The position numbers and the translations under genes are program-made. The notes below the pieces were generated by a model. The model saw only the letters and a list, made by a program, of their open reading frames with translations. It had not been told where the DNA came from and ran no database searches. From positions 1 to 64,000 of the forward strand of contig CP066684.1 of assembly GCA_016432325.1 (NCBI GenBank): a DNA stretch of 64,000 nucleotides. Direction: 5' to 3'. Below, in pieces: positions 2-61,053 of this stretch (the first letter of the stretch is position 1; the number at the start of each line of letters is the position of its first letter). Source of the DNA: Candidatus Aenigmatarchaeota archaeon. Its GTDB lineage: Archaea; Aenigmatarchaeota; Aenigmatarchaeia; PWEA01; JACQIF01.

Positions 2-2722
2 AGTTCGGGCCTGACGCTCCGAGACCAGAACGGTGCGGGCGTGCTTTACGTGAACGGGGGGAACGTGGGCATCGGGAATGCGATCCCCGGATACAAACTT
101 GATGTTTCTGGGAGCGTCAGGGTCAATGGCCCCTTTCTTGTTAACGACCAATATGCCATTGCAACAGACGCTTCCACGATATCCGTTGGCGATATAGTCA
201 GTTCCGACGGGTTAAGAAATCTCAACCTGAAGGCCGGCGATACAAGCGCGATATTTGCAACAACCGGAGGCAACGTCGGCATCGGGACGACGAGCCCTGG
301 AGCGAAGTTGACAGTATCTGCCGACGCCGCTGCTGGCAACGATGCAGTTAGAATAACCGATGCGTCTGGTAACGATTACGGCGCATTGCAACCCAATAAC
401 GGAGTTACAATCCTTAGAACGAATAATCAACCGTTGGCCTTCAAAACTAATGGTGCTGAACGTATTAGGATAGACACGAACGGTAACGTCGGCATCGGGA
501 CGGCGAGTCCGGGGGCTCCTCTTGAAGTGGAGAAGGATGCTTTGGGTCTCCTTCGCATTGAGAGAATAACCACAACCCCCGCCCAATTTGACTTCAACAT
601 TCAGCCAATAATGAGTGGCGATAATTCAGATCTCCAAATAATTCCCAACACGAATGCAGTGGGTCAAAGCTTCTACGTGCGTGATTCAGCAGGAACTCCA
701 ATCTTTGGTATGGGCATAGATCGCGGCGGCAGAGTCGGGATTGGGACCCAAAGCCCAGTCTCAGGCTACCTCCTCGACGTCAACGGTGCGCTGCGCGTGA
801 ACGGCGTCGCCTACGCTGAAAACGGCGTCGACTTCGGCTCCGCAGGCTCTGGTTGGAGCAACATAGTTGTGAGCGATGGAGGTGGTATAAATGGCGGAGG
901 CGGCAACTCCGTTTTAATCAACAGCGAAGGTGGCATTCGATTCAAGGCTAACGCAGGCAACAGCGCGCCCCATTCGATATTCGAGATGCCAGTGGTCTTC
1001 CAGTCGAATGGCGTCTTCTCCAAGCCCGTCGTGAACATAATAGCGGACGGCACATACGGCAATCCGGCGCGGACGGCGCTGCGAGTTGAGGGAAGCAACG
1101 CGAATCCCATAGTTGACGTTTATTCGGGCAGCAGCAGCGTCTTCAAGATAACAAGCGCGGGCAGCGTACTCGTTCCCAACCTCGCCAGCTGCGATACGAT
1201 TGACACGGACTCGACGGGCAAACTTGTTTGCGGGACGGATGACGGCGGTGTCACGGGCGGCTCCGCAGGCAAGGTCGCCTTCTGGACCTCGGGCTCCGCG
1301 CTCAGCAACAACGCCAACTTCGCGTGGGACAACACGAACACACGGCTCGGAATAGGAACGGCGAGCCCAACGGCGACCCTTGATGTAAACGGTGCGGCGC
1401 TTGTTCGCGGCACCCTCCACGCGGACTATCCTGATCAAACACTATTTGTTGACGGTCCCAATAACCGCGTCGGCGTCGGAACTTCAAGCCCGCAGCAGAA
1501 ACTGAGCGTCAGCGGAAACGCAGTTGTGGACCAAAACAATGCCAACATAGGCTCCGCGCCCAGCCTGCTCCTCGGCTCTTCTGGCGACGTCGGCTTCGGT
1601 TCCAAGCGCAACACAGGCGGGAACTACAACGGACTTGACCTCTATACGGCTTATCTCGCAAGAATGAGCATTACAAGCGGCGGCAACGTCGGCATCGGCA
1701 CGACAAGCCCGTCGACCAAGCTCCACGTTGCTGGCAATGCGCGCATAACAGGTCTTGCAAGCTGTGACACGATAGACACAGATGCCTCAGGAAACCTCGT
1801 ATGCGGAACAGACGCCTCGGGCTCCAGTGGCCTGCCTGCTGGCACGTCCGGCCAGACGCTCCGCCACGACGGAACGAGCTGGGTTGCAAACAACTTCCTC
1901 TACAACGACGGTTCGCGCGTCGATGTCGGTAGCGGCGGCGTGGGCGACGCAAAATGGAAGCTCGGTGTCACGAACGTTGCGAATACCGGCGGCCTGAAGA
2001 TAGCAGGAGGAGGTAACGTCAATTCCGTGCAGATAGCGCTATCTACCCCGAGCCCGCAATTCGCTGGCAATACCAACTGGGCCATAGCGACCAACTACAA
2101 CAACCCCGGTCTTGAGTTCTTGGAATCTACTTCGTACACGACAGACCCGACGATCTCGAGGTTGTTCATGGGACAAGGAGGCAAGGTGGGAATCGGCACT
2201 ACAAGCCCATCCTATAAATTGGATGTCCAGGCAAGTGGCAGTGACAGCGGAATACGTTCGACGGTGTCAAGCGGAGGCAACGCTATTTACGGTCTCAATA
2301 CAGCGGGGTCTTACGGTGTGTTTGGTGAAGCGAATGGTGCGGGTAGCTATGGGATTTTCTGCGATGCGACGTCTTCTACGGGGCTATGTGGCGGCAATCG
2401 TGCATGGTCGGTTACATCGGATGCCCGTCTTAAGAATAATGTAATAACGATAGACAGCGCACTCGACAAGGTGCAAAAACTTCGCGGAGTGAGGTTCAAC
2501 TGGAAAGACGACCCGACAAATACCCCGCAAATCGGATTCGTCGCTCAGGAAGTAGCGCCTATTGTGCCGGAAATCGTCGTCAAGGATACGAGAGGATATT
2601 ATACGGTGAAGCAGAGCGAGCTCACCGCGCTGCTGGTCGAGGCGATGAAGGAACAGCAGAAGCAGATAGAGACCCTGCAGGTCGAAGTAGCCCTTCTCAA
2701 GGCCCGGCAAGCTGTCGGCTAA
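2..2722 (+). CDS. Tail-fibre-like surface protein with C-terminal S74 auto-chaperone domain (5' partial)
   Basis: The frame is open to the window edge: codons before the GTG at 41 still read repeat-like sequence (SSGLTLRDQNGAG), so the true start lies outside. The body is a run of repeats of the type GNVGIGTTSPxxKLxVxG, as in trimeric tail fibres, and the string LASCDTIDTD occurs twice. The last ~110 residues match the intramolecular chaperone of endosialidase (peptidase S74): a TSDARLK motif, then a GFVAQEV segment and a terminal coiled coil (EAMKEQQKQIETLQVEVALLKAR). In characterised S74 domains the chaperone trimerises, helps fold the fibre and cuts itself off at the Ser-Asp bond, which is present here. 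The next gene is a secreted transglutaminase-like protein, consistent with cell-surface work. Domain call is secure; host adhesin versus viral or tailocin origin is open. Confidence 0.85.
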   Translation, partial: SSGLTLRDQNGAGVLYVNGGNVGIGNAIPGYKLDVSGSVRVNGPFLVNDQYAIATDASTISVGDIVSSDGLRNLNLKAGDTSAIFATTGGNVGIGTTSPGAKLTVSADAAAGNDAVRITDASGNDYGALQPNNGVTILRTNNQPLAFKTNGAERIRIDTNGNVGIGTASPGAPLEVEKDALGLLRIERITTTPAQFDFNIQPIMSGDNSDLQIIPNTNAVGQSFYVRDSAGTPIFGMGIDRGGRVGIGTQSPVSGYLLDVNGALRVNGVAYAENGVDFGSAGSGWSNIVVSDGGGINGGGGNSVLINSEGGIRFKANAGNSAPHSIFEMPVVFQSNGVFSKPVVNIIADGTYGNPARTALRVEGSNANPIVDVYSGSSSVFKITSAGSVLVPNLASCDTIDTDSTGKLVCGTDDGGVTGGSAGKVAFWTSGSALSNNANFAWDNTNTRLGIGTASPTATLDVNGAALVRGTLHADYPDQTLFVDGPNNRVGVGTSSPQQKLSVSGNAVVDQNNANIGSAPSLLLGSSGDVGFGSKRNTGGNYNGLDLYTAYLARMSITSGGNVGIGTTSPSTKLHVAGNARITGLASCDTIDTDASGNLVCGTDASGSSGLPAGTSGQTLRHDGTSWVANNFLYNDGSRVDVGSGGVGDAKWKLGVTNVANTGGLKIAGGGNVNSVQIALSTPSPQFAGNTNWAIATNYNNPGLEFLESTSYTTDPTISRLFMGQGGKVGIGTTSPSYKLDVQASGSDSGIRSTVSSGGNAIYGLNTAGSYGVFGEANGAGSYGIFCDATSSTGLCGGNRAWSVTSDARLKNNVITIDSALDKVQKLRGVRFNWKDDPTNTPQIGFVAQEVAPIVPEIVVKDTRGYYTVKQSELTALLVEAMKEQQKQIETLQVEVALLKARQAVG

Positions 2723-24821: not shown

Positions 24822-24932
24822 CGGGCCCGGTGGGATTCGAACCCACGGCGCTCCGGTTCCACCTTGCGGAAGATTGCTATCTTCCATTAGCCACTAAGAG
24901 CCGGATGCTCTACCAAACTGAGCTACGAGCCC
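24822..24932 (-). tRNA. tRNA-Lys(CTT) with 37-nt anticodon-loop intron
   Basis: Acceptor GGGCTCG pairs with CGGGCCC, discriminator G. D-arm GCTC/GAGC, anticodon stem TCCGG/CCGGA with loop CTCTTA | A, T-arm GTGGG TTCGAAT CCCAC. The anticodon CTT is at 24896-24898. A 37-nt intron (24858-24894) interrupts the loop at the canonical 37/38 site and folds on GGAAGAT/ATCTTCC. The mature tRNA would be 74 nt. Confidence 0.93.
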
Positions 24933-24938
24933 TGTTGG

Positions 24939-25037
24939 CGCCGCGATCGGGATTTGAACCCGAGTCAGAGCTGTGACAGAGCTCTATGCTTAGCCCAGTG
25001 TTTTCGAACACATGATAGGCCACTACACCATCGCGGC
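24939..25037 (-). tRNA. tRNA-Asp(GTC) with ~26-nt insertion before the anticodon stem
   Basis: Acceptor GCCGCGA/TCGCGGC is perfect, discriminator G73 is right for Asp, T-arm is TCGGG TTCAAAT CCCGA and the anticodon arm is GAGCT CTGTCAC AGCTC with GTC. Between the D-arm and the anticodon stem lie about 26 extra bases with a hairpin GTGTT-cga-AACAC. CAT repeats at both ends leave the splice point open by three bases; a D-loop placement (25 nt, between TGG repeats) is also possible. I could not draw a strict bulge-helix-bulge, so the site is non-canonical. Confidence 0.88.
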
Positions 25038-25885: not shown

Positions 25886-26100
25886 TCCCGGGAGCGTGAT
25901 TTTCATGCACCGCCGGAAGGCGGAGTTTCTTTGCACGCGTGCTTTCTTTTTAAAGAAAGCCCGCTTTGAACACGCGACCCGCCGGTTTCTATTTGCGAAC
26001 AACGGCTACTCGTTTTCGCGCTAGGCGAAAAGTCTACAGCCGGCTGCTCTGTGGCGAATCCGTTCGCGCGAACGGCCAACTACCGCTGAGCTACCCCGGG
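25886..26100 (-). tRNA. tRNA-Tyr(GTA) with three introns (D-loop, 37/38, T-loop)
   Basis: Acceptor CCCGGGG/TCCCGGG gives the archaeal Tyr identity pair C1-G72 and A73. D-stem GCTC/GAGC is split by 31 nt (26050-26080) with hairpin CCGTTCG-CG-CGAACGG. Anticodon stem GCCGG/CCGGC, loop CTGTAG | A with GTA at 26035-26037, intron 25987-26033 (47 nt). T-stem GCGTG/CACGC, loop TTCAAA | T at 59/60, intron 25900-25964 (65 nt). The mature product would be 72 nt from a 215-nt gene. Boundaries in the D-loop may shift by a few bases. The precursor leader carries another hairpin, CCTCGAACC-GGTTCGAGG (26113-26132). Confidence 0.9.
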
Positions 26101-29749: not shown

Positions 29750-29828
29750 GTTTGACCTTTGTGTGGTGCGGGAAGCCGTAAAGCTTCGCTTTCCGTTCCC
29801 CCAACCTTTGACGTTTATGGTGCGGGAG
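29750..29828. repeat. Imperfect direct repeat flanking a hairpin at the tRNA-Leu 3' end
   Basis: GTTTGACCTTTGTGTGGTGCGGGA (29750-29773) and CTTTGACGTTTATGGTGCGGGA (29806-29827) are near copies; the second includes the acceptor end of tRNA-Leu. Between them is AAAGC-tt-CGCTTT with flanking GGAA/TTCC. Same arrangement as at tRNA-Asp. Confidence 0.65.
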
Positions 29829-30081
29829 GTCGGAAAACCACGGTGGGCGCAACGTTTCTTTTGCACCCGTGCTTTTCTACGCGAACTGACGCACACCAAG
29901 TGTGCGTCGAGCACCTCGCGAAAAGCCCGGTTTGAACCGACGAAGGCACTAAGCCACCAGGTCTCCCTGTGGTTATGCCACACCTGAGCGTGACCTCACA
30001 CCTAAGCTTTGCCTCGCGCTCGTACTCGGAATCTCATCCGAAAGCGTGATCTGGCCCCATTGACCGCTAGGGTACTCCCGC
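29821..30081 (-). tRNA. tRNA-Leu with a 96-nt T-loop intron and interrupted anticodon arm
   Basis: Acceptor GCGGGAG/CTCCCGC with A73, D-arm CCC TAGC GGTCAAT GGG, type II variable arm GGC-ttagt-GCC and T-stem GTCGG/CCGAC identify tRNA-Leu. The T-loop reads TTCAAA | T with a 96-nt intron (29835-29930) that itself carries a hairpin GACGCACAC-GTGTGCGTC. The anticodon 5' stem CCAG and 3' ACCTGG are about 85 nt apart. At least one and probably two introns lie there (near 30/31 and 37/38), with CTCAGG or CTTAGG as the candidate anticodon piece, so CAG or TAG. I cannot decide between them. Confidence 0.8.
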
Positions 30082-32483: not shown

Positions 32484-32698
32484 CGCTGGGGGTGAGATTA
32501 TCAGCCCTACGCCTTGTGCAAAGCATCTCAGCAGTAGGGAATTCGAACTCACGCGGGCTTGCGCCCACCGGTTTTCTTGCCGTGTTTCTTTTGCACCCGT
32601 ACTTTTCTTTTTGAAAGAAAAGCCCGGTTCAAGACCGGCGCAGTGAATCCCTAGCCGCACGCTTGCGCGCACGGGTTACCAGGCTTTGCTACCCCAGC
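32484..32698 (-). tRNA. tRNA-Ser(TGA) with three introns (D-loop, 37/38, T-loop)
   Basis: Acceptor GCTGGGG/CCCCAGC with G73 (Ser). D-stem GCA/TGC is split by about 32 nt (32645-32676) with hairpin CGTGCGC-gcaa-GCGTGCG. Anticodon stem CCGGT/ACCGG with loop CTTGAA | A, TGA at 32629-32631, intron 32575-32627 (53 nt). Type II variable arm GGGC-gcaa-GCCC. T-stem GTGAG/CTCAC, loop TTCGAA | T, intron 32498-32542 (45 nt). Mature length would be 85 nt. A TATA (GTTTAAATG, minus strand, about 32723-32732) is well placed. D-loop borders may shift slightly. Confidence 0.9.
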
Positions 32699-57915: not shown

Positions 57916-58887
57916 ATGCGCATATTAATCGAGACGACGGGTTTGCACAAGGAGATGCCTTCTGCGGAAGTTCTGGCCGTGGGCGGCGGCATCCCCATAG
58001 AGGAAAGAGGCAAGCTGTTTGTCGTTGACGTTACGCAGTGGGAGCCTTTGAAGAGACTGGGTTACTCGGCGCGAATAATGGAGTTCTTGGGGAAGTCCGC
58101 GTTCAACGAGCTGCCGTTCGCTCCTCAACACGTCGTGGAAGGACGTTACGCCATACGTGCGCTCAACGCCGGTTTCAAGGGAAACACGGAGGCCTTGCGG
58201 GAGTCCCTGTACGAACTGGTATGGTCGTCTTTGTCCGCGCCGCAAGTGGATTTGAAGAACCCGCAAACGGTTCTGTACGCGTACATGACGCCGAAGGAAG
58301 TCTGGTGGGGCCGCCTTCTTCACGAGTTCGGTGCCGATGCGTTCGCACAGCGCGACTCGAAACACCGCGTGTTCAAACGCGCGGTTGAGATGCAGCCTCG
58401 CAAGGCGCGTTGTTTAGTCAACCTGTCCCGCGTGCAGCCCGGCGAACGAATGCTCGACCCGTTCTGCGGTACGGGCTCCTTTTTAATCGAGGCCGCTTCC
58501 ATGGGCGTCCAGGCGTACGGCGGCGACGTGGACGGAGAGATGGTCTCCGGAGCCAAGCGTAACGCCGCGCACCTCGGTCTCGCCGCTGACGTCCGCCACA
58601 TCGATGGCCGCCTGACCAGCGGCTGGGGAGTGAAGTTCGACGCGATAGTGACGGACCTGCCTTACGGCCGCTCTGCCTCTCTCAAAAAGGTAAAGATGGC
58701 CGAACTCTACAAAGATTTTCTCGAGTCGGCGTGGGGCGTTCTCGGACCCGACAAGTACGCGGTCGTGCTGGCGCCTAAAGGAAAACTGAAGGTGCCGCCG
58801 AAGCTGTTCGCAAAGGTAAGCGCCTTCGACGAGTATGTGCACGGTTCCCTGACTCGACAGATATTCGTCCTGCATAAGAAGGACTAG
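57916..58887 (+). CDS. tRNA (guanine-N2-) methyltransferase, Trm-G10/Trm11-like
   Basis: 323 residues. N-terminal THUMP-like region, then the Rossmann domain with LDPFCGTGSFLIEAASMG and the catalytic DLPYGRS (D/N-PPY type). Archaeal homologues make m2G/m22G at position 10 of tRNA. The stop overlaps the convergent trm56 by four bases. Confidence 0.9.
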   Translation: MRILIETTGLHKEMPSAEVLAVGGGIPIEERGKLFVVDVTQWEPLKRLGYSARIMEFLGKSAFNELPFAPQHVVEGRYAIRALNAGFKGNTEALRESLYELVWSSLSAPQVDLKNPQTVLYAYMTPKEVWWGRLLHEFGADAFAQRDSKHRVFKRAVEMQPRKARCLVNLSRVQPGERMLDPFCGTGSFLIEAASMGVQAYGGDVDGEMVSGAKRNAAHLGLAADVRHIDGRLTSGWGVKFDAIVTDLPYGRSASLKKVKMAELYKDFLESAWGVLGPDKYAVVLAPKGKLKVPPKLFAKVSAFDEYVHGSLTRQIFVLHKKD

Positions 58888-59315
58888 TGCGTCGCTTCGT
58901 ACAGAACCACGGCCAGCGCGGCGACTTCCGAATGCGGCTGTTTCGTCACGGACACGTTCGCGTCGGCCAGCCCGTAGATTTCCCCCGGGACCTTCTCGCC
59001 GCCTACGACGATTAAGACGTTCTTCGCCTTCTTTATTTCGGCAATCTTCGTTTCAAACGGCTCTCCGTACATCGTCAGATGCACCTTCAAACCGTCAAAC
59101 CGTTCAACAACATTCCTCCAATCCTTTGCGTACGTCACGGAGAACTCGCCGCCGAACCCTTCTGACACCTTGCGCACCGATGACATCATCTTCTCGTCCT
59201 TGAGACCCGAGTAGACGACGGACGACGCGCCGAACGCTCGCGCCACGAGGCCGACGTGCGTGCTTATGCGCGAGTCACGGCCCGGACGGTGGCCGAGTCG
59301 CAAGACGGTTATCAT
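58884..59315 (-). CDS. trm56: tRNA (cytidine(56)-2'-O)-methyltransferase
   Basis: 143 residues from MITVLRLGHRPGRDSRISTHVGLVARAFGA. SPOUT fold, with knot region VLIVVGGEKVPGEIYGLADANVSV. It 2'-O-methylates C56 in the T-loop. This is notable because T-loops here are interrupted at 59/60, so modification would need spliced or specially folded precursors. Start overlaps the end of the C39-like gene by 41 bases. Confidence 0.93.
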   Translation of the reverse strand: MITVLRLGHRPGRDSRISTHVGLVARAFGASSVVYSGLKDEKMMSSVRKVSEGFGGEFSVTYAKDWRNVVERFDGLKVHLTMYGEPFETKIAEIKKAKNVLIVVGGEKVPGEIYGLADANVSVTKQPHSEVAALAVVLYEATH

Positions 59316-59904
59316 TCGATCTAGCCTCCTTGTTTCTATAAACGACAAGAACGTCCTCCTCTGTTCCTCTGGCTCTTCGCGCCTTGTCGAACGGGCCTCT
59401 ACATATGGCTTCAAAAGGTTCCCCGTCATGAACAAACACATTCTCTACGTCATAACCTACCACGGTGACCGCGTGGCCAACGAATGTGCCTCGCGGAAGT
59501 ACACTGAGCATATCTGCGTCAATAGCCACGATGGGGACACTGTCCCGATTCGCGAAAGAAAGCACCTCGTCGAGACTCATTATTCTCTTTTCAATCTCTA
59601 TTTTGCGATCTTTCGCTAACCTAGCGAACTTCTGAATATCATGTGGCGGAAGTTCCTTATACCATTCCAAATCCAGATCATCGCGATTGAATTCGGAGTA
59701 TTTAGAGAGCAATCTCGGCGTGAACCCCATCTCGGCCGCCGCTATAGCTAGGCCTATCGTGTTGGTCAATTCGTCCGGTCCCATCTCGCCCGCGTTTCTG
59801 ATATAATTCTCGCTTACAATCTTCCCGAAATAAGCAGCAACCATCCTTAGCGCGTTTGAACCGCAATTCGATCCTCGTTCGTAGAAGGGAATGCTTAGCT
59901 TCAT
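59275..59904 (-). CDS. Peptidase C39-like protein
   Basis: 209 residues from MKLSIPFYERGSNCGSNALRM. The Cys is followed by GSNALRMVAAYFG as in C39 peptidases, and GHAVTVVGYD...VHDGEP gives the His and Asp. The Gln expected six residues before Cys is not there (Tyr), so activity is uncertain. No membrane segment or ABC domain. The TATA region is shared with the uS10 side. Confidence 0.72.
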   Translation of the reverse strand: MKLSIPFYERGSNCGSNALRMVAAYFGKIVSENYIRNAGEMGPDELTNTIGLAIAAAEMGFTPRLLSKYSEFNRDDLDLEWYKELPPHDIQKFARLAKDRKIEIEKRIMSLDEVLSFANRDSVPIVAIDADMLSVLPRGTFVGHAVTVVGYDVENVFVHDGEPFEAICRGPFDKARRARGTEEDVLVVYRNKEARSNDNRLATRPPSGP

Positions 59905-60784: not shown

Positions 60785-60966
60785 GCTGGGGTAGCCAAGC
60801 TTGGTTTACGGCGCCAGACTGGAAACCACACTTTTGCGAAAAGTGTGGGCAAAAACGACGAGCAAAAAACGGAAATCTGGTGGGCGCAAGCCCGCGCGAG
60901 TTCAAGCGCCTTTTTGCCGCGGCAAAAACCCGCGGGAAAACGGCCGAACGAATCTCGTCCCCAGCG
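60785..60966 (+). tRNA. tRNA-Ser(GGA) with two introns (37/38 and T-loop 59/60)
   Basis: Acceptor GCTGGGG/CCCCAGC, G73, D-stem GCC/GGC, anticodon stem CCAGA/TCTGG with loop CTGGAA | A and GGA at 60821-60823. Intron 60825-60874 (50 nt) has a hairpin CCACACTTTT-GCG-AAAAGTGTGG. Variable arm GGGC-gcaa-GCCC. T-stem GCGAG/CTCGT, loop TTCAAG | T, intron 60907-60952 (46 nt). The mature tRNA is 86 nt. A TATA (CTATTTAACA) is at 60736-60745. CC follows G73. Confidence 0.92.
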
Positions 60967-61053
60967 CCATTCAATATAACCGAGCGCTGGTACGAAACCG
61001 CAGTTTCGGCTTCCAGCGCCACGTATTTATCCTTTTGCGTGCGTACAGGAGAC

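Follow-up and report, generated by a model that had tools for sequence, protein, structure and literature searches.

Most transfer RNA (tRNA) genes of a genome from the Aenigmatarchaeota (DPANN archaea) are interrupted by introns, commonly within the T-loop. We studied these genes in a window of 64,000 nucleotides (nt), positions 1 to 64,000 of the forward strand of contig CP066684.1, and across the one-contig genome of 874,769 bases to which it belongs (estimated 90% complete; here G000), whose ribosomal protein L3 has its best match in the Aenigmatarchaeota (69% identity to JACQIF010000086.1). We conclude with high confidence that the introns are real, occur genome-wide and have spread through copying. 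Judged from their sequence, they are very probably archaeal introns of the bulge-helix-bulge kind, spliced by proteins, which have proliferated among the tRNA genes of this lineage.

The window was scanned on both strands, under relaxed settings, for an acceptor stem, a T-stem, TTCRA and CCA. Exactly six tRNA genes were recovered, all with an encoded CCA; in a scored scanner these six reached at least 31, against at most 23 for the remaining window and at most 25 for reversed or complemented controls. As a first-pass annotation of the window had reported, the T-loop was interrupted in four of them (Tyr, Leu, Ser(TGA) and Ser(GGA), by 65, 96, 44 and 46 nt, respectively) and whole in Lys and Asp. 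ARAGORN (bacterial code) detected none of the six and Rfam detected two, and at its cut-off Rfam identified 8 genes across the whole genome. Interrupted genes escape such standard tools, and genomes of lineages like this one can therefore appear tRNA-poor. An alignment of the spliced tRNAs by MAFFT put the type I anticodon arm in the wrong place and was therefore not used as the basis of a covariance model.

The first-pass annotation had proposed a genome-wide survey for introns at position 59/60. Loci were collected through Rfam and with motifs from the first introns, a route biased towards interrupted genes, and additionally from a systematic sample. The resulting catalogue held 41 genes, 38 from the scanner and three read by eye (Leu(CAG), Thr(TGT) and Ile(TAT)). 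A T-loop insert was present in 31 of the 38 scanner genes, or 32 of 41 when those read by eye were counted, and at least one intron was apparent in 39 of the 41. In the systematic 464-kilobase sample, which is free of the motif-search bias, 16 of 20 genes were T-loop-interrupted and CCA was encoded in all 20. The 38 genes were parsed to 81 introns (31 in the T-loop, 24 at 37/38, 21 in the D-loop, 3 at 30/31 and 2 at 33/34), with incomplete parses for Val TAC, Ala CGC, Arg CCT and iMet and ambiguous ones for Leu 29822 and Asn 851596. With the parsed introns removed, the 34 fully parsed genes had lengths of 70-75 nt for type I and 81-85 nt for type II. The rule suggested by the window, that type II tRNAs plus Tyr make up the interrupted set, proved to be small-sample luck: type I genes, among them Trp, Phe, His, Met, Gly, Val, Ala, Pro, Gln and Glu, formed the majority of the interrupted set, and Leu(CAG), which is type II, was intact. 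Tyr, Trp, His, Phe and elongator Met were each represented by one gene among the 41, and all five genes were interrupted; splicing is therefore needed if the cell uses them.

Several individual genes departed from the common layout. The tRNA-Leu(CAA) gene (757703-758067, minus strand, 365 nt) parsed with four introns (D-loop, 30/31, 37/38 and T-loop). In a tRNA-Ile gene with the anticodon read as TAT (about 698561-698774, minus strand; locus L011), reading by eye showed an insert on either side of TTCGAA, suggestive of introns at 53/54 and 59/60. The tRNA-Thr(TGT) gene (831659-831731, plus strand; locus L003) is intronless and carries the T-loop GGCAGAG in place of TTCRANT. In tRNA-Arg(CCT) (683127-683232, minus strand), where the parser failed, a 30-nt intron at 29/30, placed by eye, yields a perfect anticodon stem.

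The first-pass annotation had also proposed that introns were spread between genes rather than arising by chance, and comparison of the introns bore this out. BLAST among the parsed introns returned 84 related pairs (expectation value, E, at most 1e-4), comprising 39 T-loop pairs, 13 D-loop pairs and 32 pairs that crossed sites (21 D-loop with T-loop, 6 37/38 with T-loop and 5 37/38 with D-loop); the largest similarity components contained 18 and 10 introns. The T-loop intron of Ser(GGA) and the D-loop intron of Val(CAC), for example, shared 97% identity over 34 nt, and the D-loop intron of Arg(TCG) and the 37/38 intron of Gly(TCC) shared 90% over 99 nt. In family alignments the hairpin core, on the 5' side, was constant, and the 3' tail varied by copy. 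Close matches to three core motifs were found genome-wide at 10, 13 and 11 places, and all 34 lay within tRNA genes, which make up 0.93% of the genome; as tRNA introns were the source of the motifs, a location in tRNA genes is expected, and the informative part is that none lay elsewhere. Looser matches to the cores were at control level and mostly outside tRNA genes. For these three cores, a general genomic repeat landing in tRNA genes by chance is thereby ruled out. Because families cross isotypes and sites and the cores are confined to tRNA genes, the spread of introns across the tRNA set is well supported by the sequence comparisons. A fourth motif, GAAACGCGNAGCGTTTC, was inside tRNA genes at 5 of its 7 places; the remaining two fell in trailers, one of Val(CAC) and one of Ile(GAT). 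The Lys(TTT) gene (314349-314616, plus strand) has a T-loop intron in which an imperfect core motif of the D-loop family is inverted (314551, minus strand).

In the bulge-helix-bulge motif, intron bases -6 to -3 are paired with four exon bases, the last of which lies two before the cut. The available text of PMC6379350 gives the motif a helix of 4 base pairs and bulges of 3 nt. We scored this pairing for the 31 T-loop introns at five cuts (56/57 to 60/61), with shuffled introns as the control; the result concerns the exon-intron helix of 4 base pairs. At 59/60, at least three of the four pairs formed in 26 of 31 introns, compared to 18% for shuffled introns, and all four in 12. The neighbouring cuts fitted poorly (58/59 in 5 of 31 and 60/61 in none), and 56/57, 57/58, 58/59 and 60/61 were rejected as the general cut site as pairing there was at or near chance. 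The same 59/60 helix was found in related genomes, in 7/7 T-loop introns of G001, 14/18 of G010 and 3/3 of G005. Introns at 37/38 had at least three of four pairs in 24/24 cases against 23% when shuffled, in a parse that itself rewards pairing. A cut at 59/60 splits the strongly conserved TTCRANT loop, so that T-arm modification and the contacts between D-loop and T-loop probably await splicing.

The four T-loop introns of the window had been assigned to one shared site, 59/60. This held for Tyr (4/4 pairs), Leu (3/4) and Ser(TGA) (3/4) and failed for Ser(GGA), in which T54-R57 and intron bases -6 to -3 form 1/4 pairs at 59/60 and 4/4 at 58/59. The tRNA-Ser(GGA) gene (60785-60969, plus strand, body to 60965) has two introns, an encoded GCCA end and a mature length of 85 nt without GCCA. 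Its 46-nt T-loop intron occupies 60906-60951 under the preferred 58/59 cut, or 60907-60952 under a 59/60 cut, and its parsed 37/38 intron (50 nt) 60825-60874 with a 3/4 helix. A 58/59 cut in Ser(GGA) and Ser(GCT) gives the mature loop TTCAAAT, which agrees with TTCRAAT, the loop in most other genes. The Ser(GGA) intron would then begin with GCGCC, identical to its D-loop relatives. As the helix, the loop and the intron start agree, Ser(GGA) is probably cut one base earlier than 59/60.

The other window genes all lie on the minus strand. Tyr(GTA) (25887-26100) has inserts of 29 nt in the D-loop, 47 nt at 37/38 and 65 nt in the T-loop (25900-25964). The Leu gene (29822-30081), with an anticodon of TAG or CAG owing to its ambiguous parse, has inserts at 30/31, 37/38 and the T-loop (96 nt, 29835-29930). 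Ser(TGA) (32485-32698) has a D-loop insert of 34 nt, a 37/38 intron of 54 nt (32574-32627) and a T-loop intron of 44 nt (32498-32541); the family of its 37/38 intron resides elsewhere at T-loop sites, with 93% identity over 44 nt to the T-loop intron of His. Lys(CTT) (24823-24932) and Asp(GTC) (24940-25037), both with a T-loop insert of 0, carry a 37-nt intron at 37/38 and a D-loop insert of about 26 nt, respectively. The first-pass annotation had pointed to a nearby gene for Trm56, and an aTrm56-like tRNA C56 ribose methyltransferase gene is indeed encoded at 58884-59441 (minus strand; PF01994, E 3.8e-33). Nothing ties the intron pattern to it, since a position near a single tRNA gene out of 41 does not indicate a link.

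In bulge-helix-bulge splicing, the final bases of the intron would pair, within the precursor, with exon bases shortly before the cut, which are T54-R57 in the case of the T-loop site. The splicing endonuclease, for which a gene was detected, would cut within the flanking bulges, and RtcB, for which one gene was also detected, would ligate the exons. The single EndA-like gene detected (849784-850062 by PF01974 match; 1474-2034, minus strand, of locus L076) encodes an alpha-like protein of 186 amino acids. Gene content corresponded to the alpha4 type, with one PF01974 match in this genome of 90% estimated completeness and no beta or fused copy. The protein matched Methanocaldococcus jannaschii EndA (1a79) at E 6.8e-30 and the ARMAN-2 endonuclease (4fz2) at E 3.4e-25, and its structure model had a mean predicted local distance difference test (pLDDT) score of 88.4. 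The catalytic lysine of the ARMAN-2 enzyme is K282 according to the available text of PMC6379350. Tyr116 and His132 were kept in the EndA-like protein and Ala163 aligned to K282, leaving the Tyr-His-Lys triad of the alpha4 type incomplete; the K282 position was Ala or Thr in all 11 aligned Aenigmatarchaeota sequences, G000 included. An EndA without the aligned lysine poses a direct biochemical question.

Several results weigh against the interpretation as a protein-spliced, multiplied intron set. Five of the 31 T-loop introns had fewer than three of four pairs at 59/60, namely Ser(GGA), Ser(GCT), Pro(TGG), Ala(GGC) and Lys(TTT). At 58/59 the two Ser introns paired 4/4 and Pro(TGG) 3/4, and none of the tested sites fitted Ala(GGC) or Lys(TTT) well. 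Base 57 and intron base -6 showed no clear covariation when four genomes were pooled. Pairing did not fix the D-loop cuts, with at least three of four pairs in 100% of real and 93% of shuffled introns. Furthermore, the EndA-like protein had no loop resembling those that the literature links to relaxed substrates; in the available text of PMC6379350, efficient cutting of relaxed motifs is restricted to (alpha-beta)2 and epsilon2 enzymes. As the sole EndA-like gene encodes neither this loop nor the aligned catalytic lysine, the identity of the cutting enzyme is not secure. Finally, 3' tails adapted to their site would also fit gene conversion of resident introns in place of insertion at empty sites.

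Related genomes were compared for the state of the T-loop. Among all genes found, it was interrupted in 7/12 in G001 (same genus; 8 of its 20 contigs were chosen by Rfam match, favouring intact genes), 18/24 in G010 (another family of the same order; systematic 400-kilobase sample) and 3/20 in G005 (same order). Counts were 1/1 in G002 and 0/4 in G004 (contigs partly chosen by Rfam match), and in more distant genomes 2/4 in G014 (one doubtful), 0/3 in G020 and 0/1 in G016. Among 60 loci of various archaea fetched via L3, T-loops were mostly intact, and the sole interrupted call (L069) had no CCA and is doubtful. The genomes G005, G007, G009 and G011-G013 belong to one family of the same order. 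Five of the six encode, in place of the single-domain form, a fused EndA-like protein with two domains (364-372 amino acids), and Rfam finds more tRNAs in them; PF01974 had no match in G005. The T-loop is also interrupted in Trp and Pro(GGG) of G001 and in Gly(GCC) and Glu of G010, by introns without similarity to those of G000. T-loop introns are thus recurrent in the order, with unrelated sequences. The 59/60 site may have been in use before the families of the order diverged, or may have been hit repeatedly, and intron sequences there would turn over fast.

These comparisons bear on a different history, in which ancient T-loop introns have been passed down vertically with each tRNA, their similarity arising only through later gene conversion between resident introns, with no invasion of empty sites. 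The use of the T-loop site in several families, the unrelated introns of those four G001 and G010 genes, and 3' tails specific to their site all agree with such a history. It accounts less readily for the Asn gene beside Phe, where a 138-nt T-loop insert in G000 is absent from G001, and for Gly(CCC), whose T-loop is filled in G000 and intact in G001, though both differences are compatible with gain or loss alike. The low proportion of interrupted genes in G005 and the cores common to D-loop, 37/38 and T-loop sites without evident flanking homology also count against it. We regard this history as a serious possibility, somewhat short of an even chance. Under the spread that we favour, intron cores would act as a repeat family restricted to tRNA genes; the hairpin core would be copied among genes and sites, and the copy-specific 3' tail would be complementary to the local exon. 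The copying could proceed by recombination or gene conversion between introns, or by true insertion at the DNA level. No RVT_1 match at E up to 1 was found in the genome, and mobility by a reverse transcriptase (group II) was rejected on that ground. Y1-transposase mobility was likewise rejected, the lone Y1_Tnp match being far under the cut-off.

Copies of tRNA ends were also found beside the genes. In 9 of 38 G000 genes, a repeat of the final 10 bases of the gene, with no more than one mismatch, stood 39-85 nt downstream beyond an intervening hairpin, compared to 25 of 1384 controls. Ser(GGA) is followed in this way by a hairpin and a second tRNA 3' end, CCAGCGCCA, at 60970-61021 (plus strand), and the other 3'-end copies, which include CCA, lie in the trailers of the genes at 29822, 246824, 292777, 314349, 640902, 683127, 700549 and 829953. 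The first 12 bases (at most two mismatches) were repeated 45-133 nt upstream, followed by a hairpin, in 6 of 38 genes (those at 24940, 629854, 700549, 753646, 757703 and 829729) and in 12 of 1402 controls. A hairpin of the T-loop introns of Met and Gly(CCC) reappeared in two of the 3'-copy trailers. Based on the flanking copies and the shared hairpins, a bolder and rather doubtful interpretation is that non-coding hairpin DNA elements insert only in or beside tRNA genes and move at the DNA level without a reverse transcriptase. Inside the gene they would be spliced introns with a 3' tail fitted to the exon, and at the ends a second tRNA-end copy would keep the gene whole; they would move among D-loop, anticodon and T-loop positions, and the one splicing endonuclease detected in this lineage has no lysine aligned at the catalytic position.

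Previous researchers (Randau and Soll, cited via the available text of PMC3293823) proposed that disruption of tRNA genes blocks integration. By extension, introns could be retained here since an interrupted T-loop ruins the attachment site of tRNA-targeting integrases, and their spread would amount to protection from mobile elements. The nine downstream copies look as if tRNA ends had been acted on, but they are too near to bound a normal integrated element, and such repeats were rare in relatives with many T-loop introns (2/24 genes in G010 and 0/11 in G001). We therefore consider this explanation unlikely. The interruptions could also be artefacts, arising from pseudogenes, from faulty assembly or from a permissive scanner that matches by chance. 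In favour of this, the scanner permits long inserts and one control match, with no T-loop insert, reached threshold in the G000 sample. We consider it highly improbable, as genes and controls were separated by a score gap, CCA was encoded throughout the 20 sampled genes, mature lengths were in range, essential isotypes were single-copy and separately assembled genomes had the same architecture.

The multiplication of archaeal tRNA introns is an unsolved problem, and the available text of PMC4090602 describes their transposition mechanism as unknown. G000 and its relatives at several distances make gain, loss and site-switching testable. A literature search returned no paper on T-loop tRNA introns in DPANN archaea, which is weak evidence of novelty since most subscription papers were outside its reach; for intron-containing tRNA with DPANN it returned only an Asgard paper (PMC11291895), and the word 'intron' is nowhere in the main text of an Aenigmarchaeota paper (PMC8407114).

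Four known systems can be compared to the introns described here. In the Asgard Atabeyarchaeia and Freyarchaeia, the available text of PMC11291895 reports introns in 92-95% of tRNA genes, often non-canonical and with more than half of the genes carrying several, a density like that of G000; those archaea belong to another phylum, and neither families of shared introns nor dominance of the T-loop site is reported in that text. Intron gain linked to integration in Caldiarchaeum, as presented in the accessible parts of PMC3293823, likewise involves tRNA fragments beside the gene and ties new introns to mobile DNA on tRNA genes, but it concerns one locus, whereas most of the tRNA set is involved here, with families of intron cores and no integrase or mobile element identified. 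The broad-specificity epsilon2 EndA of ARMAN-2 (available text of PMC12397907 and PMC6379350) similarly combines non-canonical tRNA introns in ultrasmall archaea with a homologous endonuclease, which in G000 is instead a single alpha-like protein with Ala163 at the K282 position. The closest parallel is the transposition of tRNA introns in the Thermoproteales (2010; via the accessible text of PMC4033280 and PMC4090602), where several introns per tRNA also occur. Near-identical introns in different isotypes and sites, the hallmark of that system, were found here as well. Differences are the DPANN lineage, the T-loop as the commonest called site (31 introns against 24 at 37/38 and 21 in the D-loop, in 38 genes), and a single alpha-like EndA in place of the two-subunit crenarchaeal type. 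In addition, one G000 gene has four parsed introns, compared to a maximum of three in the available text of PMC4033280 and PMC8450103; in the latter, which analysed 217 archaeal genomes, the highest count among the complete genomes assessed was 71 introns in 46 genes. The expansion in this genome is therefore akin to that of the Thermoproteales, and what is new is the DPANN setting, the dominance of the T-loop, the four-intron tRNA and the alpha-like EndA without an aligned lysine.
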